Below are positions 1 to 40,695 of a DNA stretch of 64,000 nt, piece after piece. The translations under genes were made by a program, and so were the position numbers. The notes under the pieces were generated by a model that was not told the DNA's origin, ran no database searches, and worked only from the letters and a program-made list of their open reading frames with translations. Origin of the DNA: Nitzschia sp. pyKryTriq1 (lineage: Eukaryota > Bacillariophyta > Bacillariophyceae > Bacillariales > Bacillariaceae); the NCBI GenBank assembly GCA_956465555.1, contig OY101115.1:4677680-4741679 (forward strand), written 5' to 3'. The first letter of the stretch is position 1. Each line of letters starts with the position of its first letter.

Positions 1-157
1 GAGCGAAACTTGAATTCTCCAACAACTCAGTGCTGCTCTTAAAAACAACAGAACAGGCCTTGTTCCTTTTGTTGAACTAACAATGTCAACAAGGTGGTTC
101 TACTAGCTACTACCAGAGCCCCCCGTGAGAAACCCTGAAAACGAAAGACAACGCTCC

Positions 158-623
158 TCGACGACCTTGAAATCCTGAGAGCGAAGCAGTAGCATCAACA
201 ACAGATAGGGATGATATGAACAAATGAGGATGCGGTACCGTTGTCGGACCAATACCGGTAGAGGAGAAAACACAAGGGTGAGAATAAATCCTCTTGTTCG
301 CTTCAAGAAGTCCCCGCGCTCTTTCGCTGATTCAAGATTTGCTATCAGACGAGTGCAGTAGCGCTTCGACGACTTTGTCCTCGGCAAGTCTCGACGACCT
401 TGAAATCCTGAGAGCGAAGCAGTAGCATCAACAACAGATAGGGATGATATGAACAAATGAGGATGCGGTACCGTTGTCGGACCAATACCGGTAGAGGAGA
501 AAACACAAGGGTGAGAATAAATCCTCTTGTTCGCTTCAAGAAGTCCCCGCGCTCTTTCGCTGATTCAAGATTTGCTATCAGACGAGTGCAGTAGCGCTTC
601 GACGACTTTGTCCTCGGCAAGTC
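158..623. repeat. Perfect 233-bp tandem duplication
   Basis: Bases 158-390 recur as 391-623 with an offset of exactly 233 and no difference that I can find by eye. The unit carries no convincing coding signal: open frames run across it on the minus strand, but they merely repeat the same peptide. The perfect identity suggests a recent duplication or an assembly artefact. Confidence 0.93.
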
Positions 624-1496
624 TTATGGTAGCTCTTTAGAAACTCTCTACTAGAGTAGAGAATCCTCATAGACTATGCTTGTTCTTTGTTTTCGTACGT
701 GCCCTACTAGACTAGTACGGTACTAGTACAGTACATCATCATCCGTCCGTCCTGAGCAAATCTTTGAATAATACAGTACGATCGCTATTACCCAGTACCT
801 AGTAGTACCGGCTACCGGTACTGCTGCGGAGGACTGTGTGTTATTGTTATTCTTCGATCCTTGGTCGAGCCAGCAAAGAAGAGCCTGGCCTGTCTCGAAC
901 TCTCGGACAAAAGCAGCCAGATAGAGGACGAGTTTTTGTTTCTACAGTACTAACTTCCGCAGTAGACTACTACTTGAGCACGAGTTTCGCGTTCTCATCC
1001 CCGGTGAAGCAGGACCAAAACACTAATAGTAGGATCGATGATTTCCCATTGTCTGTAAGCAAGATAGAGGAGACACATTGGTGAAAATACGAGCAGAAAT
1101 AAGTATCAGTAGAATTTGGACCAAGTCATTCAATCGTTCGTAATTTCACAGGTTTAGTAGTTAGCTCCTCTTACTACTTCCAGCTAGTAGTACTACTTCT
1201 AGCTAGTAGAACAGAGTAGTAGTACCGGTAGTAGTAGAGTAATCCATAGAGACTAGAAATACCTGAGGTTGGTACTAGAGTGGAAATCAGAAAGAAGATA
1301 ATGATGATGGTACTACGCTTTTGCTCCTAGCAGTAGCTCTTGTTGGTGGTACTACACTCCAGAGTTGTTGATCGTTTACGCCCAAGAAGAATCTACTAGT
1401 AGACAAGAAGAAGATAGAGGAGTAGTTCTACTGCTGTATGTCATTCGATCTTAGTAGAATGCTATACTGTTCTTAGCAAAAGCTGTGATACTACTA
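624..1496. other. Gene-free spacer
   Basis: No credible gene. The stretch is rich in short CTA/TAG, GTAC and ACCGGT words that form many small imperfect palindromes. This is the general texture of spacers in this window. Confidence 0.6.
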
Positions 1497-2263
1497 CTAG
1501 CAAGTACTTCGAACGGGCAGTCTCAAGCTCTTGGTGTTCTTCTTTTGGGAAAGTAGCAAGAGACTATCACGGTGCCCAGCAGTCATCACCAGCAAATTCC
1601 CCCCACATCTCGTGGGCGAAGAAGAAGAAGAAGTAGCGCTCCATCGACCGGCACCAGCGCTGGAGCTCAGTGGTGGAGGTCGGTCTATATCAATAGACTT
1701 TTTCTTAGTATTCTTGCACCTGGTGGTGGTGGCGGTGGACGAAGATATAGCGCAACGAGACAGTGATTCTACTACTTCTGCGGATGCCAGTTTGTCGGAC
1801 CGAATTCTCGCTTCTTCTTGGGCCTCTTTCCAAGTCTTTTGGTACGCGCTAGAGATCAAGGTTCCATCAGTAACGTGCACCACAAAACGGCGTATACGCC
1901 TGCGTTTCTTCGCTGCCGTCGATGGGATCGTACCGAACAGGAGGTTTCCAATCCGAGCAGGGAGTCGTTGGGAGGAGGAGTGGATCGCTTCGATTGAATC
2001 AGCAGCTCTTCGTCTCGCTTGGCCATTGCTTTATAATCTCGAGACGTGTACCAAATATCCGACAGCTGGACCGCAGACTCGTCGTAATCGGCATGTAGAG
2101 GGACCAGATACGAAACCTTGACGACCTTTACCGCGGAATTGAAGTGGACGTAGGTAGTCGTACCACTGGTTTCTTGGTGCAGCGGTCGTTGCCGTTTTCT
2201 CATTGGACTACTACAAGCAGTAGATGTAGTCGAAGTATTGGAAGAATTGGTTGTAATGATCAT
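1497..2263 (-). pseudogene. Frame-broken WYT/GLE family paralogue
   Basis: This is a degraded copy of the intact gene at 9448-10242. Reading the minus strand from about 2263, one frame gives MRKRQR, then VSYLVPLHADYDES, SDIWYTSRDYKAM, DSLLGLE and RRNAG, all matching the intact paralogue. Around 1856-1883 that frame dies. A different frame takes over (KEAQEEARIRSDKLASA, then PPPLSSSAGAGRW, GHRDSL and LRLPVRS), again matching the paralogue. Roughly a dozen or more residues present between these parts in the intact copy are missing, so a deletion that was not a multiple of three explains the shift. An intron at the junction is possible but no good splice pair is evident. The function of the family is unknown. 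Confidence 0.72.
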
Positions 2264-3206
2264 GGTTGTAACTACTAGTACTCGTACTTTGGAAAATATT
2301 ATTTTTGTGAGCCCGATTTTGTGATTTCGGATTCTAGCTGTGCGTGGCAATTGAGAAACGCCGTTCTTGAATTTTAATTACTACTTGGACACCGACCACG
2401 CCCCGGGAGCCTATGTGTTGCTTCGCACTCTATTTAACGTAAATAGAGATGATGATGATGATGATTCTACGATTATTTCCTTGCTTTTTATTTCCCCGCA
2501 TTTTCAATTCACGATCACGACTACCGGTACGGTACTTGTACAACAGGCGCTGTACTCTTACAGTACCGGTACAGTCGTGCCCGAGATTCGATGCATGGTA
2601 AGTATGTGAGTCAGAACCCACTAAATGAAATGGGTGAACCATTCGAGAATTCCCTTTTTTTGACCCAAGTACTACCTGCGTGACAGGTGTACCGGTACCA
2701 GGTACGGTACACATACGCCTCGGGTAACCACCACCATCATCATTATGACGAGTGTTGTCTTTGTTGGGCCTTTCGCCGGCCGAGAGGCCATTTTTTAAGA
2801 AATTCGGATTCATTCGTCTGTACTTGGTACGCTTAAGCTCGGCCGCGATGATCGATCCTCGACAACCGTTCATCTGAGCCAACGGTCTGACTGTCTGGCC
2901 GTTCCAGCAGCAACCTCCCAAGATTATTATGAGAAGATCGCGAATGAATGATATCATTATGATGTCAGCAGTTACGTGTTGGTGTTCTCATGCAGCACAA
3001 CATCGCATCCATCATTCCCATCATCATCTGCCATCTGTCTGTGTATCCCACGCATAAGAAAGATACGACGACGGGTTGTTCCTGGTCTTCCGGTATCATC
3101 ATTATATCTCGAGACTGTATTTCTTCACCACTTTCACTTCTCATCGTTCGCTTAGGAGCTACAGTACAGTACAGTACTACAGTACGGACAGTATCAAAAT
3201 AATAGT
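2264..3206. other. Gene-free spacer upstream of the lactonase gene
   Basis: It holds the 5' flanks of the divergent WYT/GLE pseudogene and the lactonase gene. A minus-strand open frame at 2430-2957 has no recognisable composition or motif and is not called. The last 70 bases before the lactonase ATG are an ACAGT/GTACAGT-rich stretch. No clear TATA box is seen. Confidence 0.5.
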
Positions 3207-6200
3207 ATGACTACCGCTGACCTGCTCGTTGCCAAAACCCAAGCCAATGTGGCCGAGGCGTTGTGTCAATCGATTGTGTCCATCGCTGACGAGACCCTTC
3301 AGAACAAGTCCTCCTTTTCGATTGCGTTGAGCGGGGGGAGCTTGCCGAGCTTTCTCGCCGCCTTGCCTCTCGCCTTTGAAAAGGCGCAAGTGGATCCGCA
3401 GTGGTCGAAGTGGCACGTCTTTTTGGCGGACGAACGATGCGTGCCACTTTCTAGCGAGGACTCTAATCTCGCCGCCATTCAAGGACACTTTTTACACTTG
3501 ACATCCATTCCAACCTCTCAAATTCACGGAATCAATCAAGACTTGTTGTTGTTGTTGTTGGCGGCGGCGCAGAAGCATGACGGCGAAAACAACATCGACA
3601 AAATTGCCGAGGACTACCAAGCCACGTTGGAACGTGTGCTGAAGGAGTTAACGCCGTGTTCGGATACAACCTACTCGTTTTTGGATTTGGCCGTTCTTGG
3701 ATTCGGTCCCGATGGACACACTTGCAGCTTGTTTCCCAATCATCCACTACTGGAAGAAGACACGAAGTGGGTCGCTGCGATTACGGATTCACCCAAACCA
3801 CCATCGGATCGCATCACATTAACGTTTCCCTTTCTCAATCAATGTACTCACAACGTGATCATCTGTGGAGCCGGTTCCAGCAAGCGCCCGATCGTCGAAC
3901 AGGTCTTTCAGCCCCATGATATTTATCCACTTCATTCGAGTCGTCAAGAAGAATATTCCAACAAGGAGATTCTTGCAGCCTATTATACGGCATCCATTTC
4001 GCACTCGCCGCCACCACCGTTCCCATGTGCCATGGTACACCCCATGAAAAGCTTGACGTGGATCCTCGATTCGGATGCTATTCCATCCAGCTGGGGACTC
4101 TTGTCAAATGTTGTGGCAGAAGTTGATGTCTTTCCCACCAAGTCGGATGTGGGTACGGAGCTTTGTCGTCAAATTGTAGCCATTTGTCAGCAATCGATTC
4201 AACAGAGGAACATCTTTTCCATCGCACTAAGTGGAGGCAGCCTTCCAGCTCTCCTCTCGAAACTTCCCGAGACGTTTCGCCAAATGAATGTACCGCCGCA
4301 TTATGAGAAATGGCACATTGTCATGGCGGATGAACGAGGGGTGCCGGAATCGCATCCGGATTCCAATCTACGTGCCATCAAGCGCTCTTTTTTGACACAA
4401 GTGGGAGTTTCGGTTCCAGCACGACAAGTCCATGGAATCGACAATGTGTCCTTGGGCGAATCCATCCAAGTGGCAGCCTTGAGCTATCAAACCACACTAC
4501 TTTCGGTCCTAGAATTGTGTGAAGGAGGGTTATTGGATTTGGTCTTGCTGGGATTTGGGGAAGACGGCCACACCTGTAGTCTCTTTCCGAATCATCCACT
4601 GCTGCTCGAACGAGAGGCCTACGTCGCAGCCTTGACGGACTCGCCCAAACCTCCTTCTTATCGCATCACGTTCACCCTTCGAACGCTGAATGAACGTTCG
4701 AGAAATATTTTGTTTTGTGGAACGGGAGAGTCGAAAAGTCCTATTCTTCATGAAATCCTACAAGGGGCCTATCATCGCACTACCACCAGTGATATCAACG
4801 ACAAGGAGGAGGAGGAGGACGGGCATCACCACCACCAGAGACTCGAAGCCAATGTCTATCCCAAATTTCCTTGTGGGATGGCACGACCCAAGGAACGACT
4901 AGTCTACCTTGCGGACGCCGCCGCCATGAAACAAGTATTTGTCGCTTCGAGTGAAGAGTCGGCGGAACACGACGAGGAAACCAATACCGGTCCCAGACTC
5001 GTTGCTCGACGAGGCTCCTCCGTGTTGCCCAAACCCGCCATTGCCAAGCTGTACGTCCACTCTCACCAAGCAGACGTCGGTGCTGAATTGTGCGCTCAGA
5101 TTGTGCGATACGCAGCCACGGCGATTGCAGAACGCAGCGCTTTTACAGTCGCCTTGAGTGGAGGATCCTTGCCTGGTATGCTGTCAAAGCTTCCACAAGC
5201 CTTCGCGGACGCAGGCGTAGACCCCCACTATCACATGTGGCACGTCTTGCTGGCGGACGAGCGATGTGTTCCCGAAGATCATCCCGAATCCAACATGCAT
5301 GCACTAAATCGATATCTCTTGGGAGATCTTTACGAGCGGATCCCCCACCAACACATTTATGGCTTGGATCAAGTCTCGCTGGCAGAGTCTCCTCAAGTTG
5401 CCGCCCAGGACTACGAGCGTAAGGTTAAAACCGCTCTGGGATCATCCGGTGGCATGTTGGACCTGGCCGTTTTGGGATTTGGTCCCGATGGACACACTTG
5501 CAGTTTGTTCCCCAACCATCCGCTACTGAAAGAAGACACGAAATGGGTCGCTGCCATTACGGATTCACCCAAAGCACCGTCAAACCGCATTACCATGACC
5601 TTTCCCTTGTTGAATCAGCATACTCGCAACGTACTGTTTTGTGGTACGGGCAACTCCAAGAGTGCGATCCTACGGGACATTTTCCCCTCCATCAAGGCCA
5701 AGGGACTCCACATGGAAATGGATCTAGTACCAACAAAGTATCCTTGCTCCATGATTCGACCTCAAGGCGACTTGGTATACATTGTCGATGAAGGCTCCAT
5801 GGAGAAAGTGCTGGACTGCGATCCTACTGCGCCACCCGCCCAATTCGCCAAGGTTTTAGTTGCCAAGAACAAAGAAGCCCTTCCCGATCGAGTGCTCCCC
5901 TTGTTGGTTCAACAGTCGCAAAAGGCAATTCGAGAACGCGGCATCTTTACCATTGCACTTTCCGGCGGGTCGATTCCTCAACTTTTATCGGGGCTGGCGG
6001 ACGCCTTTCGACACTTGGGCATCGTTCCTCAATGGGACAAGTGGCATGTACTCTTGGCCGACGAGCGTTGCGTGCCCGGCTCCGACCCTGACTCGAATAT
6101 GGGCGCCCTTCGAAGTCACCTCTTGGACTTTATTAACATTCCTCCTTCCCAAATATATGGGATTGACGAGTCGAAACTTGTTGCATCATCGACACAAGAC

Positions 6201-6650
6201 CAAGCGCGAGATTACGAAGCCAAGGTTCGAAAAGTCCTGGCCCGCTCCGATGGTGTGCTCGACGTGGCGCTTCTCGGATTTGGACCCGATGGTCACACCT
6301 GTTCATTATTTCCAGGGCGGGAGCAGTTGCAGGAACGTCTTCGTTGGGTGACAGGGATCGATGATTCTCCCAAACCTCCTTCGAAGCGCATCACATTGAC
6401 TTTGGGACTACTGAACGAATGGACTCGAACTATTATTTTCTGTGGCGCCGGCGAAAGCAAGGAGCCGGTATTGAGCAAAGTCTTTCAAGAAGTCCAAGGT
6501 CGGCATGGAACGGACATTTACGTCAAAATTCAAAACGACCCTCCTCCCTTCCCCTGTGCGATGGTGACCCCACAGACTCATCTCTTTTGGGTAGTTGATG
6601 CAGCCGCCATGCCCAGCAGGCATCTGCTGCTCCCGCAAGCCCCTCCGTAA
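3207..6650 (+). CDS. Four-domain 6-phosphogluconolactonase
   Basis: An intronless 1147-residue protein containing four consecutive 6-phosphogluconolactonase (glucosamine-6-phosphate isomerase/6PGL fold) domains. This enzyme hydrolyses 6-phosphoglucono-delta-lactone to 6-phosphogluconate, the second step of the oxidative pentose phosphate pathway. Each domain opens with LSGGS (residues 41, 341, 650 and 918), followed by WHVLLADER-like and GFGPDGHTCSLFP motifs, then DSPKPPSxRIT. The Asp/Arg of ADER and the His of DGHT correspond to catalytic positions in characterised 6PGLs, and all four domains keep them. Domain 2 has ADERGVP instead of ADERCVP and GFGEDGHT instead of GFGPDGHT. Domain 4 has LFPGREQL in place of LFPNHPLL. 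Usual family length is about 230-270 residues, so this is a fourfold fusion. The start begins MTTADLL with no obvious transit peptide, so a cytosolic location is my inference. Confidence 0.95.
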   Translation: MTTADLLVAKTQANVAEALCQSIVSIADETLQNKSSFSIALSGGSLPSFLAALPLAFEKAQVDPQWSKWHVFLADERCVPLSSEDSNLAAIQGHFLHLTSIPTSQIHGINQDLLLLLLAAAQKHDGENNIDKIAEDYQATLERVLKELTPCSDTTYSFLDLAVLGFGPDGHTCSLFPNHPLLEEDTKWVAAITDSPKPPSDRITLTFPFLNQCTHNVIICGAGSSKRPIVEQVFQPHDIYPLHSSRQEEYSNKEILAAYYTASISHSPPPPFPCAMVHPMKSLTWILDSDAIPSSWGLLSNVVAEVDVFPTKSDVGTELCRQIVAICQQSIQQRNIFSIALSGGSLPALLSKLPETFRQMNVPPHYEKWHIVMADERGVPESHPDSNLRAIKRSFLTQVGVSVPARQVHGIDNVSLGESIQVAALSYQTTLLSVLELCEGGLLDLVLLGFGEDGHTCSLFPNHPLLLEREAYVAALTDSPKPPSYRITFTLRTLNERSRNILFCGTGESKSPILHEILQGAYHRTTTSDINDKEEEEDGHHHHQRLEANVYPKFPCGMARPKERLVYLADAAAMKQVFVASSEESAEHDEETNTGPRLVARRGSSVLPKPAIAKLYVHSHQADVGAELCAQIVRYAATAIAERSAFTVALSGGSLPGMLSKLPQAFADAGVDPHYHMWHVLLADERCVPEDHPESNMHALNRYLLGDLYERIPHQHIYGLDQVSLAESPQVAAQDYERKVKTALGSSGGMLDLAVLGFGPDGHTCSLFPNHPLLKEDTKWVAAITDSPKAPSNRITMTFPLLNQHTRNVLFCGTGNSKSAILRDIFPSIKAKGLHMEMDLVPTKYPCSMIRPQGDLVYIVDEGSMEKVLDCDPTAPPAQFAKVLVAKNKEALPDRVLPLLVQQSQKAIRERGIFTIALSGGSIPQLLSGLADAFRHLGIVPQWDKWHVLLADERCVPGSDPDSNMGALRSHLLDFINIPPSQIYGIDESKLVASSTQDQARDYEAKVRKVLARSDGVLDVALLGFGPDGHTCSLFPGREQLQERLRWVTGIDDSPKPPSKRITLTLGLLNEWTRTIIFCGAGESKEPVLSKVFQEVQGRHGTDIYVKIQNDPPPFPCAMVTPQTHLFWVVDAAAMPSRHLLLPQAPP

Positions 6651-17418: not shown

Positions 17419-20400
17419 CTACAAGTAAAGAAGATCTTTCCACAAGGGCGGAAATTCCTCCTCTGGAAAGGCAATCTCGTGGCGAAAAGTACCCGCAACC
17501 ATCATATCCGACTGAAAGGGCCGAAGATAAAACTGAATCGCTTCGGGAGGCACGTCCTTGACACGTGCCACCATTCGACTAGAAGAGTCATTCTTTGCCC
17601 TACTTCTACTAGTAGTAGGAGCTCCAAGAAAGTAGACAACGTCAAACGCCTGACTTTCTGCGGAGCTGTCCAATATTTTGCAAGGCTTGGAATCCATAAA
17701 ATCAGTCGGCACCTTGAAGCCCTCGTCGCCGTACGTAATCCCCATATAGGATTGTTTCCGCCTTGGGTCTACTACAGCCTTGGTAAAGTCAGTGGATATA
17801 GTTTCTTCAATCCAGAACGTCTCGCCTTTTTCTTTGATGAGGGTGGCGTTGTATAAGCACGTTGTCAGGTGGGTACTCGTCCATGGGTGAAAACCTTTGT
17901 TGAACTTGTCATCATTCATGGAGAGCACCCGTTTTGACGATTTGAAGCAAGACGGTTCCGACGACGATCGACATGGACTCTTCCAGTTGTCGATGTACGC
18001 TTTCCACGCTTCTTCCCAGGCTTCGCCTGTGTGTGTAGAGAGAGAGAGTGAGAGAGAGAGATCATCACATGAGAAAGATTCTGTAGTCTAGGCATAGGGG
18101 ATATAAACAGACCGCTCTTACCATAGTCTATGAAAATCTCTTCGTCTGGTTGAATATCGCGAGTTGCGATGACCTCAATCATAACAGTTGAATATTTTTG
18201 CTGCAAAAAGTCAACGATAGAGAACGAGAATGAGAATAAAATCATAAAAGTAGAAGAATCAAGGCTGGATGAAGTGACGTGCCGGCCTGTACCTCAAGCA
18301 AATCCTCCAGCGGAAGGCTCGTAAAATATCTAGTCCGGCGGTCAGTTTTCGAAAAAGTGATTCTCGCATTGGGTGCGCTCCCGTCCTCGAGGCGGGCGCT
18401 ATTGTGATTAATAGACATCGCTTGGTTAAGCGGGAATAGCAAGGTTGACGAATCTTTGTGCCCAAAGTGATAATTGGTCATGAGTTGGTAATCATTGGTC
18501 GCTTCTCCAAGGCGCGTACTATTAATGAAAAGAACGCCTCTTGTGGTTGGAATAGTCGGAGCCGAAATGATGCTGGCGCCCTTGCCAAGGAATCTCCGCG
18601 AGAAGGCACCCTTTCCAGCATTGGGGAGAGTACTATCCTTGACAAAGATGTGGTCTTGGCAGTATCCATTCGCCTCGAGCCATTCTTGTGATCGAGCTTC
18701 CACCGTCGCTTCGGCCGTCCCATTGCGAGTGAGGACATGGCGTAGATCGTCCAACGTCTGAACAGCACTCAAAGCCGAGAGCGTTCGTTTGTTTTCGGTC
18801 TCCACAAAATGATCGCGAATGAGGGAAAGAAAATTCGCCACAAATGATTCGTCTTTCTCGATCGCGCCAGTATGAAGAAGGGCCAATACCGAGGCGAGGA
18901 TGGCATTCGCTTGCATAAAGTTTTCCAATTGAGGCACATTGGCAAACTTGGCACGATGACGAAACCAAGTCTCTCCATACGAAACAAACAATTCTTCCCC
19001 GGCCGCAATCGGATACTTCGAACGAAAGCCACTATTCACGTAGTCGGAAAAGGCACCCGCTCCGTAGTCTTGAACTCCATCTAGTGCGGGCGACCACTCG
19101 CCCACGTCTATTTCCAAATTGTTGATCCCAGAGTGGCAGTTTGCCATAGCTCCCATGACACCGGCAAGAAAGGTAATGGAAGGCAACTTTGGCCAGCCTT
19201 CATAAACGCTCGCATTAAAGCCATTCCAAACATAATCTTGACCGACCCAAGGTTCTTTATCCTCTGGGGAAGAAAACGCGGGAATGAGTGACAGAGACGT
19301 TGCCACCATCACATCTCCCGCCGGAATATCGACAGCGGTGTAAACCCCCAACCCAGCATTGGGAATATTGCTCTTTGCAATGTAGACACCACATTTCGCT
19401 TTTCGAAGGGATCGTTCGTAGCCCTCTTGCTCTGCGTTATTATGTACACTGACGTCTGCGTAGGTTCCAAGCTTGAAATCTTGGGCGGTCTTGTAGTCTC
19501 GGCGCCATCGTCGAGGAAAGATGGAATCGGGGATGGGAATGAAATGCCGAAACGCCCATTCCAAATGCATATCGGTGTGATATAGAGAGTTTGTGAACTG
19601 GATCCGATCTCCAGGAACGTTTCGGAATTTCCGGCCCACTTGAGCAAGGGATATAGGCTTAACGAGCATTTCAACCTCATGAAGATTTGTGCTTGGGTCT
19701 ACTCGGACAACATTGCAAGGGTACAGGGACACCGCATCGTTGTACTTGTACCATGCAACATAGGTTGCCGGCCATTGCTCCCGATCGGTGGCCCAGTTGG
19801 CGGCAAAATCCTCCCAGCCCGCCGGCCTGCTTGGAACGATCTTGACGTGAGGGTACACCATACAAAAGTAGGCAAGGTGCTCGTGACGGACCTCGGTGGA
19901 TGGAGCTATGGCACGACCCATGGCATTCACCTTGTTTGCGGAGAGACGGCTATCGTTGTCGGCATTGATCGTGTTGATACTGCTGGAAGTGCCATGTTCC
20001 AAATGATCCGCCAAAGCGTCCTCCCAGCTTTTTGTGTAGTCCAAGAATAGTTCCTCTCCGGCTTGAATGGGCCGAATTGCTACGTATTCCATCACCACTC
20101 GAGTCTTGTAGGAGGCCAGATCCGTCTGACTGATGTTCGTAATCGATTCCAGAGACTCCAGTTTGAAATGATGATCTGGTGCATCCTCTTCCGTACTGGT
20201 TGTAGGAGTCGCCGACGACCATCGGATGGCCACGTTGGGAGTAATAGAATTTGTATTAACAGAATTTGTACCGGTAGCGGCAGTACTCGCATGATTGATC
20301 AACGCTGCATGAGTCGTTGGACAAAACAAAAGATCGGAGTGCTCATGTCCGAAACAATAATTCGTCAAGAGTTGTTGTGTTGCGTTGGCACGGATATCCG

Positions 20401-22463
20401 GAAAGTAAAAGTCCTGCTCGTCATTGTCGTCGTCGTCGTGGTTCGCGAATAGTACGTCCTTGGGTTTTGGAGGTGTATTGGCAGATGTGGTAAAAGGAAC
20501 TTCCATTGCCGTTTTCCCATTGGTGATTGTTACCATGGGCGATACGGAAATAATGGAACCCTTGGGCATGTCTCGTGTCGCAAAGGCGCCATGCCCCGCT
20601 TCGGGAATCATCGTACTCGCTTTGGATGTGATCGTATCGAGACAGTACCCTATATTAGTAGTAGTAGTAGCAATAGGAGTAGAGTACGAGCAGAGTACAA
20701 TACAAGCAATAAGGAGGGAAAGAGACAAAATGAGAATGACAATGACAGCGACCACCCTATCCATCCACCCACCCATCATTTACTAATAAAGTAAGTAGTA
20801 CGTACGTACCATTCTGTTCTATCCAATCCAAACTCCGTTCCTTCAATTTGCACTTGGCCGTACCCACTTGGACACATTTTTCTAATTCTTGTCGAGTCCT
20901 CGGGATGAGACTGGATAATAATCTCTTGGCCCGGTCATCCTCGGCAGCAGGATACCCGGTACCACGACCTACAACCACCACTTCCTTGGCTAATCGATAC
21001 AAGGCGTCTTCCAATTGAGCATCCGTCAAGGTGTGGGCAATGCTGTTGCTGTTGTTGCTGTTGCTGTCGTTATTGTTGCTGTTGTCATCAAGATTATTCA
21101 TCATCATGATTATGCCATGAATCATGGTATCGACCAATTCATAATCCTTTGCCGAGGGAAGATGACGCTCGTAGTAGATGTTGTTGTTGTTGGGGTTGTT
21201 GTTGTTGTTCCTTGTTCGATCAAAAAACAATTCTTCCCCCTTTTGAATATTGCGTTTGGCAATCAAATAAAAGTCATGATAGGCCGTCGAGGATCCTGCC
21301 ATGGGACTGGTATAACGATAAAAGTCTCCATCTTGTGTCAAACCACCCGGGAGAACTAATAATAAAAATATAAAAAGAACAATAAAGAAAAAAGCAATGC
21401 AAAAGCAAAAGCAAAAGCATTAGTGAACGAACGAACGAATGAATGGAGCCACCAACCAACCAACCAACCAACCTAAAGTTCTATTATATAGTGATGTAGT
21501 ATGTAATAAATAGCACGTACCATTATCCAAGGCCGCATGATGATTGATCAACGATGCCGGGCCCGGTAGAAACAAGTCGACCCGAAGTCCCTCTCCAAAG
21601 GAACCAATATCCGTCGACTCCCTTTTGGTAGTAGTAGAAGTAGAAGTAGAAGTAGTAGAAGTATGGAATGAAAAGAAATGAAGTGGAATGGAACGTGAGG
21701 ATAGGACTATTACTACTAGAATAACAACACAACAAAGCACAACACAACACAACATGCACACATGAACATGCACATGCCAATGATGGAATATACATTCGTA
21801 CCATAAGTATTCACTCAACGCTCCATAGATAAATGTTGTGTCGCCTCGCCCGGTCGGCATGTCGAGGAATGGAATGCCGACGCTCGGAGTTCCCTGAAAT
21901 ATGAAATGGAATAATGAAGTGAAGTGAAAGGAAAAAGCATCCACAGTACGTTAGAACGAAAGAACGAAAGAAAGTTAGAAACACACAGCATTGATTAAAG
22001 TATTGTATCATTCCAGCTCAGCTCAGCTCAGCTCAGCTCAGCTCAGCTCAGCTCAGCTCAGTTCAGTTCAGTTCAGTTCAGTTCAGTCCAGTCCAGTCCA
22101 GTCCAGTCTGGTTCAGCTCAGTCTGGTTCAGTTCAGTTCACTTCACTTTTACTTGTTTATTACACTTACGATCCGATCCCCCATGGCAAAGTCTCGTGCC
22201 GCAAAGACACCCCATCCGGCGTTGGGTATTGAACTTTTCGCCATGTAAATGGAGCATGACGACGAAGATGATGATGATGATGATGATGGTGGGGTGGGCG
22301 CTGCTGCTTGGGCGGTGTTACTCCTCTTTTGCATCACCGAAGTGGGCACCGTTTTCGCTCCGACGTGATGGATGCCCATCATCATCATGCCCATCATCAT
22401 CAACAACATCGTCATGGCCATCATCATCTTCCTTATCCTTATCCTTATCCTTATCCTCGCCAT
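17419..22463 (-). CDS. Four-fold SET-domain protein with signal-like N-terminus
   Basis: Seven minus-strand exons: 22463-22170, 21893-21802, 21621-21521, 21355-20810, 20649-18293, 18200-18122 and 18026-17419. All introns are GT-AG and all phases close, giving 1358 residues. Four SET-like units are visible. Unit 1 (about 73-210) has SSIPNAGWGVFAARD, INHHAA and GEELF. Unit 2 (about 345-550) has PEAGHGAFATRD, LINHAS and GEELFLDYTKSW. Unit 3 (about 765-900) has SNIPNAGLGVY and GEELFVSYGETW. Unit 4 (about 1010-1165) has STLPNAGKGAF, SINHNSA and EEIFIDYGEAW. SET domains are usually S-adenosylmethionine-dependent lysine methyltransferases. Unit 3 lacks the NH motif (it reads ANCHSG), so it may be inactive. 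The N-terminus is a Met-rich hydrophobic run ending GIHHVGA, resembling a signal peptide. That is unusual for this family and depends on the first exon being right. Confidence 0.85.
22014..22140. repeat. Pentanucleotide repeat in SET-gene intron 1
   Basis: Variants CAGCT, CAGTT and CAGTC follow one another for about 25 units inside the first intron (21894-22169). Confidence 0.92.
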
Positions 22464-23100: not shown

Positions 23101-23709
23101 AACCCTCTTCGAGTTTCTGATGAAGAACGAGTTGTACATTGGTATTTGATGACACCTACCCCTACATTGATCAAAGGAGGTTCGTCAAGAAGGACTGGTC
23201 TGAGTTTTACCCTGACGCTGCGCAGGTGATACCGCCAAAGATGCCTGAAGGGCGGGGTCTACCGGTGACCATGTCCTGTTTTGTGGATGCTGATCATGGG
23301 GGATGCAGAGGGTGTCATCATTTTGGTCATTCGCTTGCCAATCTTATGGTACAGCAAGAGGCAAACGACTGTCGAGACATCGACCTGGGGGAGTGAAATA
23401 TGTGCACTTAGAACCGCCATTGAAATGGTGGAGGGGTTGCGATACAAGTTGAGGATGATGGGCGTCATTCTCGACGGCCCATGCGATGTCTTCTGTGACA
23501 ATGACTCCGTGGTCAAGTCTACGACTAGGCCAGAGAGTAACTTACAGAAGAAAAGCAATGCAGTAGCTTACCACAAGGCCCAGGAGTTGCAAGCTGCCGA
23601 TGCGATACGGATTACCCACGAGGACGGCGATACCAACCTCGCCGATATCCTCACGAAGCTACTTCCTGGGCCACGACTCCGCGAACTGAGCGGAAAGATT
23701 CTATGGTAG
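23101..23709 (+). mobile_element. Copia RNase H relic, frameshifted
   Basis: The 3' end of a Ty1/Copia polyprotein. One frame reads DDTYPYIDQRRF, then DWSEFYPDAAQ, PPKMPEGRG and CFVDADHGGCR. After a small deletion the next frame continues ILWYSKRQTTVETSTWGSE, then FCDNDSVV, KSNAVAYHKAQEL and NLADILTKLLPG, and stops at 23709. These are the RNase H acidic residues (D of VDAD, E of GSE, D of CDND) and the usual C-terminus of diatom Copia elements. The break makes it non-functional. It is on the opposite strand from the 11.1-kb relic and covers a different part of the polyprotein, so the two need not belong to one element. Confidence 0.88.
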
Positions 23710-38483: not shown

Positions 38484-38668
38484 TTGATCTTTGATTGATC
38501 TTTGATTGATCTTTGATTGATCTTTGATTGATCTTTGATTGATCTTTGATTGATCTTTGATTGATCTTTGATTGATCTTTGATTGATCTTTGATTGATCT
38601 TTGATTGATCTTTGATTGATCTTTGATTGATCTTTGATTGATCTTTGATTGATCTTTGATTGATCTTG
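38484..38668. repeat. 11-bp tandem repeat before a secreted-protein gene
   Basis: About 17 nearly perfect units of TTGATCTTTGA. The array ends 55 bases before the ATG at 38724, so it lies in the core promoter or leader. Confidence 0.96.
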
Positions 38669-38723
38669 CTACCTTTGTCATCGTCATCATCTTTGCTTAT
38701 CGTTGCTTATCGTTGCTTATATC

Positions 38724-40695
38724 ATGAAAGTCCAGCACGGCCTCTTGTGGATCTCGTTCGCGGCCGCGGTTGCCATTCTGGCCACTGCCGGAGACGCCGC
38801 GAAGGATGAAGAGTCCTCTGTCGTCGAGCAGCAGCAGCATAAGCAGCAGCATAAGCAGCCGTGGAATTTTCTCCTTCGAGGAGGTTCTGCTGGTGCTGGT
38901 GCTGCTGCTGCTGCTGCTGCTGCCGGAACTTCCTCTAATCTTGACGAGGAGAGGTCCTCTATTGCTCTCGATATGGATCACTTTCTTGATGTCGATCATG
39001 TCGATGTCGATGTCAGCGAGGAGCTACATGAACAAGCCCTTCTACTGCAGGCGGAAGAACAAGAAGGAGGCGAAGGTGACGAGGACCCCCTTGCTGTTGT
39101 TCTTTCCACCCCCCTCGTCAAACAAGAAGAAGGAAGGACCCTTGGTCTTGATCGAGCGCTTCAAACGGGAGTTGCTCTTGGCGGCGAATGTTCTACCACC
39201 TATGTCTGTCAAAGCGGTCTCTTTTGTGTTGTGGGTGTTGATAGGCAGAACGCGTATCCTTCGACATATTTTTGCCAGGATGGTTCAGCTGGCAGCCTCT
39301 GTACCTCAGCCGAACATTGCAAGGCTACTTCTGCGTTCTGCAGCATTGACTTTAGCGATGCCTGGTACAGAAAGAAGTGTACTCAAGGGATAAAAGGAGA
39401 TTCGTGCGCAGCAACATGGGAGTACCCGGACCCTGGTACGCCATCAGGATGTGCCGTCGGCTTTTATTGTGTCAGACCCGGCGGAGACATACCGCGATGG
39501 TTTTGCTATGATGGATCAGCTGGAAGCTTCTGTACCTCAGCCGAACAATGCAATCCGACTACTGCTCCGTTATGCAGAGTGGACTACAGCGATGACTGGC
39601 AAAGAATGAAGTGTAATCAAGGAGTTGCTCTGGGAGGCCAATGTTCCACCTCTGCTCCATGTCTAAGCGGTCTCTTTTGTGTGCAAGACAGTTGGGGGAC
39701 GGGTTTGTGCTACGATGGATCAGCTGGCAGCTTCTGTCATACAAACGAAGACTGCAACCCTACTACTTCTCCGTTCTGCAGCGTGGACTACAGGGATGGT
39801 CACTACAAGTGTACTGAAGGGAAAAAAGGAGACTCGTGCGGAGGAACACTTGGGGAAAGTGGTACGCCATCAGGATGTGCCTCCGGCAATTTTTGTTTAT
39901 ACACTGATAATATCCAACGACAATGGTTGTGCCATGATGGTCCTTTCAACGTTCGTGATCTAGGTTATCGACCCAACGTATTCAATGGCTGGTATGACAT
40001 TGACGATCAGACAGATACATGCCATGCATATTGCCGCTGGGTCGGGAATACGCCTCCTCCTGCCGATTTGGATCCAGGACTATCTACCCCATCCAAATAC
40101 GGCTCGAGCTTTTGGGCCTGTCAAACCTCGAGTTCTATTGAATACAAACTCGTCAACGCCACTGTTGAGAAGACCAAATGCCCGTTTCCCGTGAAGGATG
40201 CTGGTTATAAAAACATCCATACTGGCTGGTACGACATTAACAATGATGGGAAATGCGAAGAGTATTGCCGATGGGTGGGCGATACGGCTGTCCCCAACGA
40301 TCTGGATCCAAGAAGCTACGCAGATTACAATTTCACATTTTCTGGTAGCTTCTGGGCCTGTCACACCTCCAACAAAACTTACGAGCAGCAATTTGCCGAC
40401 CAAACATTTTCAACGATGAAGTGCAAGAGCGGTACTTTGCGGGTCGGTGAATGTGGACCAGGTAAGTTTCAATTCTTGTGTTCGTGGTGCTGGTGTCGCC
40501 TAGCTACTGGTTTGAGCTTCCAGCTACAGCCGCTAATGGAGGACTGACGAGTCGTGTTTGATGATCACCAATACTTCCGCAATACTAATACTTCTGACCC
40601 TTCTTGTTGGCTTTATCGTTCACCTCCCCCTTGTCTCCTCCTTGTATTTTTCTGCTACGGTTCCAGTTGCCGACTGCAACAAACCGAAGCCATAG
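38724..40695 (+). CDS. Secreted modular Cys-rich protein
   Basis: Two exons, 38724-40461 and 40667-40695, giving 588 residues. The N-terminus is a clear signal peptide (hydrophobic LLWISFAAAVAILATAG, then DAA). Residues about 30-150 are acidic and Gln/Ala-rich. From about residue 150, four Cys-rich half-modules alternate. Type one has GG(E/Q)CST, SGLFC and C-DGSAGS-C; type two has KGDSC, TPSGCA and FYC/NFC. From about 404 to 545, two copies of another module follow: GWYDI-D, YCRWVG, DLDP and SFWAC-TS. The last exon is only 29 nt and ends GPVADCNKPKP. I know the GWYDI/YCRWVG module from diatom extracellular proteins but not its function. N-glycosylation sites (NFT, NKT) fit secretion. A cell-wall, mucilage or adhesive role is inference. 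Confidence 0.85.

Follow-up and report, generated by a model that had tools for sequence, protein, structure and literature searches.

A diatom gene for four alternating SET units in two tandem modules, from a gene family with signal-like starts

Results

Structure of the gene

The stretch analysed here ("the window" throughout) comprises 64,000 nucleotides of Nitzschia sp. pyKryTriq1 (NCBI GenBank assembly GCA_956465555.1, contig OY101115.1, positions 4,677,680 to 4,741,679) and carries, on its minus strand, a seven-exon gene for a protein with four SET-like units. We rebuilt the exons at the coordinates given in an earlier note on this DNA, and its claim that seven exons join in phase held: all six introns begin with GT and end with AG, the phases match, and the product is 1358 amino acids long followed by a stop codon. 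The GT-AG model places exon 1 at 22170..22463, exon 2 at 21802..21893, exon 3 at 21521..21621, exon 4 at 20810..21355, exon 5 at 18293..20649, exon 6 at 18122..18200, and exon 7, including the stop codon, at 17419..18026 (all minus strand). Exon 5 is a single open frame that holds unit 2, the first of two copies of a C-terminal domain (CTD1), a linker, unit 3, and the greater part of unit 4. CTD1 and unit 3 are joined by this linker of only 34 amino acids inside the one open exon, which makes a gene boundary between them unlikely.

Searched as a whole, the protein matched the Pfam SET family in four stretches (97.6 bits, E 6.6e-28). Each unit cut out singly also passed the curated cut-off of 22.4 bits for SET (PF00856), which bears out the claim of four SET-like units in one chain. 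Unit 1 (residues 70-212, exons 1-4, 21207..22256, minus strand, 29.2 bits) is of a type that we call A; it keeps Asn-His and has arginine at the place of tyrosine. Unit 2 (residues 347-556, 20015..20644, minus strand, 36.3 bits) is of the second type, B, with Asn-His and tyrosine both kept. Unit 3 (residues 764-909, 18956..19393, minus strand, 25.6 bits) is again A-type, with cysteine replacing histidine and tyrosine kept, and unit 4 (residues 1008-1164, exons 5-7, 18004..18661, minus strand, 30.3 bits) is B-type with Asn-His and tyrosine kept. A six-frame SET search of the genome returned 80 matches in total; units 2 and 3 were found in place, and units 1 and 4, which are split by introns, were absent from these matches. 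When the six pairs of units were compared, the top scores were those of units 2 and 4 (162) and units 1 and 3 (82).

A C-terminal domain (CTD) stands behind each B unit. CTD1 follows unit 2 (residues 603-729, 19496..19876, minus strand) and was delimited from the family alignment, with no Pfam family assigned; CTD2 follows unit 4 (residues 1207-1356, 17428..17877, minus strand) and was delimited from the same alignment and a genome search. In an alignment of 17 CTD rows, from which the partial CTDs of L019 and L020 were left out, one aspartate, one phenylalanine, one arginine, and one tryptophan are invariant in every row. No Pfam family was matched by more than one of the 17 rows (best E 0.1), and no match was found among PDB sequences; fold-search lists were filled by SET domains. 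By inspection, the strand pattern in a structure model of the paralogue L021 hints at a small barrel. The protein is thus built of two tandem modules, each with an A unit, a B unit, and a CTD (A-B-CTD-A-B-CTD). We are highly confident of this anatomy, and of the membership of the protein in the gene family described below.

A second copy

A near copy of the gene (L009) lies on contig C3. All six introns are kept there with GT-AG boundaries, including the splice sites of exons 2 to 7, and the frame is open over 1358 amino acids. The two copies differ at 53 of 4077 exon nucleotides and at 63 of 968 intron nucleotides (gaps excluded), with 30 synonymous and 28 non-synonymous changes, giving a ratio of non-synonymous to synonymous substitution rates (dN/dS) of 0.26, a rough value because the changes are few. 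Whether L009 is an allele or a gene, it is the exons rather than the introns that have been held constant, and the conservation of splice sites and frame puts the structure of the window gene beyond chance. A two-gene split of exon 5 was considered and rejected on account of the open frame and the 34-amino-acid linker, both present in both copies.

The final 66 kb of C3 are collinear, with gaps, with window positions 3829-63894, near both contig ends, and window positions 1-391 and 1299-3500 match C3 immediately ahead of this stretch. This likeness reflects an uncollapsed haplotype, a redundant contig end, or a large duplication, and L009 need not be a second gene: it may be allelic or a product of redundant assembly. 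Over the whole comparison, window 1-63894 and C3:3542990-3612244 are mostly collinear (85-99.7% identity, gaps included), and the two contigs end within about 110 bases of one point.

Two types of SET unit

To place the units, we used a tree of 35 units (16 A and 19 B) cut from the window gene and from loci L010-L024, leaving out the copy on C3. The 19 B units form one clade with support of 100/100. Window unit 1 lies outside this clade yet adjoins it, as a branch with support of 95/83 separates the other 15 A units from unit 1 together with the B units. It was labelled A because of its position, its motif, and the 100/100 branch, and it is the A unit nearest to B, consistent with its Asn-His. 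Profiles of the A and B units align with each other (probability 98.3, E 1.5e-14), predicted models confirmed the SET fold of a B unit, and the closest PDB matches of the B units are histone methyltransferases.

We then scored the alignment columns for Asn-His and tyrosine, which we take to be the catalytic residues of SET enzymes. All three residues are present in every one of the 19 B units. None of the 16 A units has the full set: 15 are without the histidine, and the remaining one is window unit 1, with its arginine at the tyrosine place (tyrosine was unscored in the A units of L014 and L018, which are cut at an exon end near that residue). Mean pairwise identity is 29% among A units and 37% among B units, and complete retention of the three residues at the latter level suggests selection on catalysis. 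Because only B units keep all three, units 2 and 4 look catalytic and units 1 and 3 look dormant. By these residues, units 2 and 4 are quite probably S-adenosylmethionine-dependent lysine methyltransferases, and units 1 and 3 would be divergent partners of the B units. The earlier note had singled out unit 3 as lacking the Asn-His motif and proposed that catalytic and non-catalytic units are mixed. The mixture is real, and unit 3 does have Asn-Cys; however, it is not the sole odd unit, since the types alternate A-B-A-B and unit 1 is also A-type, without the tyrosine.

Other domain matches were few. No chromatin domain scored above its Pfam cut-off in the window protein (the SSRP1 family SSrecog reached 13.3 bits against a cut-off of 22.2 on the piece containing unit 2), and neither a MYND nor a Rubisco-substrate-binding domain was matched at E values up to 1. 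A SAF match exactly at the cut-off (21.0 bits) covers 14 residues inside unit 1 with no stretch passing alone, and a DUF7852 match lies below the cut-off; both were taken as chance.

A family of double-SET genes

We searched the genome (40.65 Mb in 20 contigs) for relatives, taking as queries CTD2 alone and unit 4 together with CTD2. As only the best candidates were scored, the resulting count is a lower bound: besides the window gene and its copy, there are at least 16 family genes, on L010-L024. Twelve of these 16 have one A and one B unit, and in L010, L015, and L017 the A unit is partial or was not seen. In L013, a single open frame of 1330 codons runs without interruption through four SET units, so that its four-unit chain is credible without splicing. 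The earlier note had regarded several SET units in one chain as a rarity; within this family they are usual. A weak, divergent relative was found at L025, and using the double-SET paralogue L021 as query brought one more, weak place (C16, E 4e-4). No relative was confirmed on viral contigs. Among the matches listed, a contig of a bacterial metagenome-assembled genome (L032, JALRAA010000119.1) opens with a B-type SET fragment running into a penicillin-binding-like protein, and by inspection is probably chimeric. The genome also holds eight matches above the cut-off to the silicon-transporter family Silic_transp, the mark of a diatom.

The window gene most likely arose by head-to-tail joining of two double-SET modules. 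In L011, two double-SET genes follow one another in tandem on the same strand; fusion of such neighbours is a plausible route to a four-unit gene. A single origin of the two quadruple genes was considered, and a clade uniting the four modules of the window gene and L013 was rejected (p-AU, the p-value of the approximately unbiased test, 0.016); this value is a lead only, as the window rows are long-branched and the group was named after the unit trees had been seen. It suggests that the two genes probably arose separately. The best tree keeps the two window modules apart, and likewise the two L013 modules, but holding either pair together is not rejected (p-AU 0.15 for the window, 0.20 for L013). 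The tree does not place the window modules firmly, and a joining of two different double-SET genes is as plausible as an internal duplication.

Signal-like starts

Residues 1-36 of the window protein (22356..22463, minus strand) form a putative signal peptide with an Arg-rich n-region, a Met-rich core, and a possible cleavage site between VGA and KT; it is weak alone, and it is encoded in ATG/AGGATA microsatellite-like DNA. As a control for such starts, we used the 10-residue hydropathy of 177 internal Met-started stretches, of which 6.8% reach 2.0 and whose 95th percentile is 2.15. A readable same-frame start was available for 12 of the 16 paralogues (no N-terminal exon could be located for L010, L013, L014, or L017). 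All 12 starts, which were chosen by eye in a way that favours a hydrophobic outcome, are hydrophobic, with hydropathy of 2.15-3.40; 11 exceed the 95th percentile of the control and L015 lies at it. The frame of the double-SET paralogue L016 (positions 5230-5485 of the locus) ends in RDKDEL directly before the stop codon, after an acidic tail. A C-terminal KDEL is a signal for retention in the endoplasmic reticulum (ER), and by inspection no other family member was seen to have one. N-glycosylation sequons are in clear excess in L016 alone of the 12 paralogues (8 versus 3.7 expected). A secretory signal had been thought unexpected for such a protein; in this family a hydrophobic start is the habit.

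The C-terminus of L023 has an ShK-like Cys-rich end that scores 14.2 bits against a Pfam cut-off of 20.9. Such ends are common in secreted proteins.

An extra domain and other features

A further C-terminal domain with a His-x-Asp...His...Arg pattern occurs at five places. It stands beside clear SET units in L012, L019, and L023, and beside a weak one in L025 (the motifs in L025 and L033 were read by inspection). In L033, the fifth place, it comes after another region that bears HxD; the protein there starts signal-like and has no match in Pfam, SET included, at E 0.01. The conserved pattern is suggestive of a 2-oxoglutarate oxygenase; searches of the extra domain against Pfam and PDB gave no oxygenase match and so did not confirm this. 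As a lead from the motif, the domain could be an oxygenase and, if so, a lysine hydroxylase.

Elsewhere in the window, intron 1 contains a long CTGAA/CTGGA/CTGAG-like pentanucleotide repeat (22010-22145, minus strand), and the intron is 276 versus 236 nucleotides long in the two copies. Just upstream of the gene lies what by inspection is a Copia-like retroelement fragment (23124-23709, plus strand), of which 23269-23709 has no Pfam match at E 0.01. A 1164-codon open frame at 3156-6650 (plus strand) encodes four tandem Glucosamine_iso/6-phosphogluconolactonase stretches (Pfam E 1.6e-236), another fourfold enzyme repeat. A 627-codon frame at 38664-40547 (plus strand) has a signal-like start and, by inspection, Cys-rich repeats, with no Pfam match at E 0.01.

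Discussion

Judged by sequence, the family of the window gene seems to act within the secretory pathway, where it may take part in modifying the proteins that form the silica shell. The window protein itself is probably a secretory-pathway protein. In the mechanism that we propose, it would act in the lumen of the ER or Golgi on lysine-rich cargo: the B units would pass methyl groups to lysines, the A units would shape substrate binding or regulate the B units, and the CTD would help to hold the substrate. The substrate would most likely be silaffin- or cingulin-like proteins with clustered methylated lysines. The silaffin passages of a 2015 review (PMC4557024) describe ER-routed silaffins whose lysines are dimethylated, trimethylated, and delta-hydroxylated and frequently lie in KXXK clusters, and suggest that these clusters might be a recognition sequence for modifying enzymes; they also call the cellular location of further silaffin modification unclear. 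A tandem of two modules suits such clustered targets, and the doubled module would make one enzyme able to treat several clustered lysines. A silica-forming protein is the best candidate for the substrate, although a tentative one. The explanation taken whole, a secretory-pathway SET protein of the form signal peptide-A-B-CTD-A-B-CTD with silica-forming proteins as its likeliest substrates, has in our judgement an even chance of being right. Further out, we find it rather unlikely that diatoms have a lumenal lysine-modification line in which SET units work as dormant-active pairs, the doubled pair is processive on KXXK clusters, and the oxygenase-like fusions perform delta-hydroxylation.

Several observations weigh against the secretory methyltransferase. 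The start of the window protein has a hydropathy of 2.05, and that of the copy 1.70. The signal-peptide-like start proposed in the earlier note is thus hydrophobic and Met-rich, but its score falls below the 95th percentile of the control, so that the signal peptide is credible only through its family context. Sequons are not enriched in the window protein (10 versus 11.8 expected by shuffling), and a lumenal SET enzyme would need S-adenosylmethionine in the ER or Golgi. As to catalysis, unit 2 has DYT where DYG is expected, and the structure models are of middling confidence (mean predicted local distance difference test scores of 60.7 and 69.0).

The first two of these points also favour a nuclear or cytosolic histone or protein methyltransferase with repeated SET units, whose Met-rich start would be a microsatellite accident: the start is only weakly hydrophobic and not alike in the two copies, sequons are not enriched, and the B units are closest in PDB to histone methyltransferases. 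The hydrophobic starts of all 12 scored paralogues and the KDEL end of L016 argue against such an enzyme, as do the spacer and cysteine ahead of unit 1, which resemble those of the paralogues, and the lack of any chromatin domain above the Pfam cut-off in the window protein. We consider it unlikely. Least probable of all is that two neighbouring double-SET genes were wrongly merged into one model. The L011 tandem demonstrates that such neighbours exist; however, in both copies an open exon of 2357 nucleotides covers CTD1, the linker, unit 3, and the greater part of unit 4, the linker has by inspection no signal-like stretch, and L013 encodes four units in one open frame, which leaves a merger scarcely credible.

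Two other explanations accept the secretory location and differ in what the proteins do there. Their substrates could be small amines, such as long-chain polyamines, instead of lysines in proteins. The relevant passage of PMC11554505 suggests a part in putrescine methylation, and that of PMC4557024 describes N-methylation of long-chain polyamines. Set against this, SET enzymes are known to act on protein lysine (or histidine, in the case of SETD3), and we rate polyamine substrates as improbable. Alternatively, the proteins could be SET-fold binding scaffolds of the cell wall without any catalysis, as the loss of part of the motif set in all 16 A units and the divergence of family members would allow; the intact asparagine, histidine, and tyrosine of all 19 B units, at a mean pairwise identity of 37%, make this somewhat less probable still.

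Work on SET enzymes has dealt almost entirely with chromatin and the cytosol, and a sizeable SET family with signal-like starts, one member of which ends in KDEL, would add the secretory lumen to their range. Should the substrates prove to be silaffin-like, the family would offer specific genes as candidates for methylating and hydroxylating the lysines of silica-forming proteins; were the lumenal line real, these would be the long-sought enzymes for their dimethyl-lysine and trimethyl-hydroxylysine. With the A-B-A-B design it can also be tested cleanly whether a dormant SET unit is of use to its active neighbour.

Comparison with known systems

SETD8/KMT5A, the Plasmodium protein PFL0690c (4rz0), and SUV4-20 have the SET fold and the NH...Y signature in common with the window B units. 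We take these to be nuclear, single-SET proteins, and they differ from the window protein in having no signal peptide, A unit, or CTD. SMYD proteins and Rubisco LSMT/SETD3 are SET enzymes in which a C-terminal domain aids the binding of non-histone substrates; the window protein differs from them in having, by Pfam, neither a MYND finger nor a Rubisco-substrate-binding domain, and its CTD has neither a Pfam family nor a match among PDB sequences. More than one SET domain per chain has already been described, in the class IV-C proteins of Chlamydomonas, which have two according to the passage on them in PMC5725981. These are of the chromatin type, with SAD_SRA and PreSET domains, neither of which Pfam reported in the window protein.

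The silica literature offers a precedent for the place of work. In the passages of PMC4557024 on modifying enzymes, the silaffin kinase tpSTK1 of Thalassiosira pseudonana is located in the ER/Golgi; like the protein proposed here, it is a signal-peptide enzyme of these compartments that modifies silaffins, but as a kinase it belongs to another enzyme class. How lysines of silica-forming proteins are methylated and hydroxylated was worked out by chemical means (PMC4557024). Among the titles and abstract openings returned by our literature search, most of them from papers whose full texts were left unopened, there was no quadruple-SET or lumenal SET protein. The main text of PMC5501833 has no mention of a SET domain, and the SET-domain passage of PMC3814326 concerns four separate proteins.

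Closest to the window family are the diatom-specific SET methyltransferases tied to cell-wall formation that were reported by Nemoto 2020 (Mar Biotechnol 22:551-563), as cited in passages of PMC11554505 and PMC11151724. Compared through these citing passages, they resemble the window family in comprising several diatom genes, with cell-wall-forming proteins or polyamines as the proposed targets. Within the literature searched, the window gene adds to this published kind of diatom SET protein the alternating four-unit form, the CTD, and, through its paralogue L016, the KDEL end.

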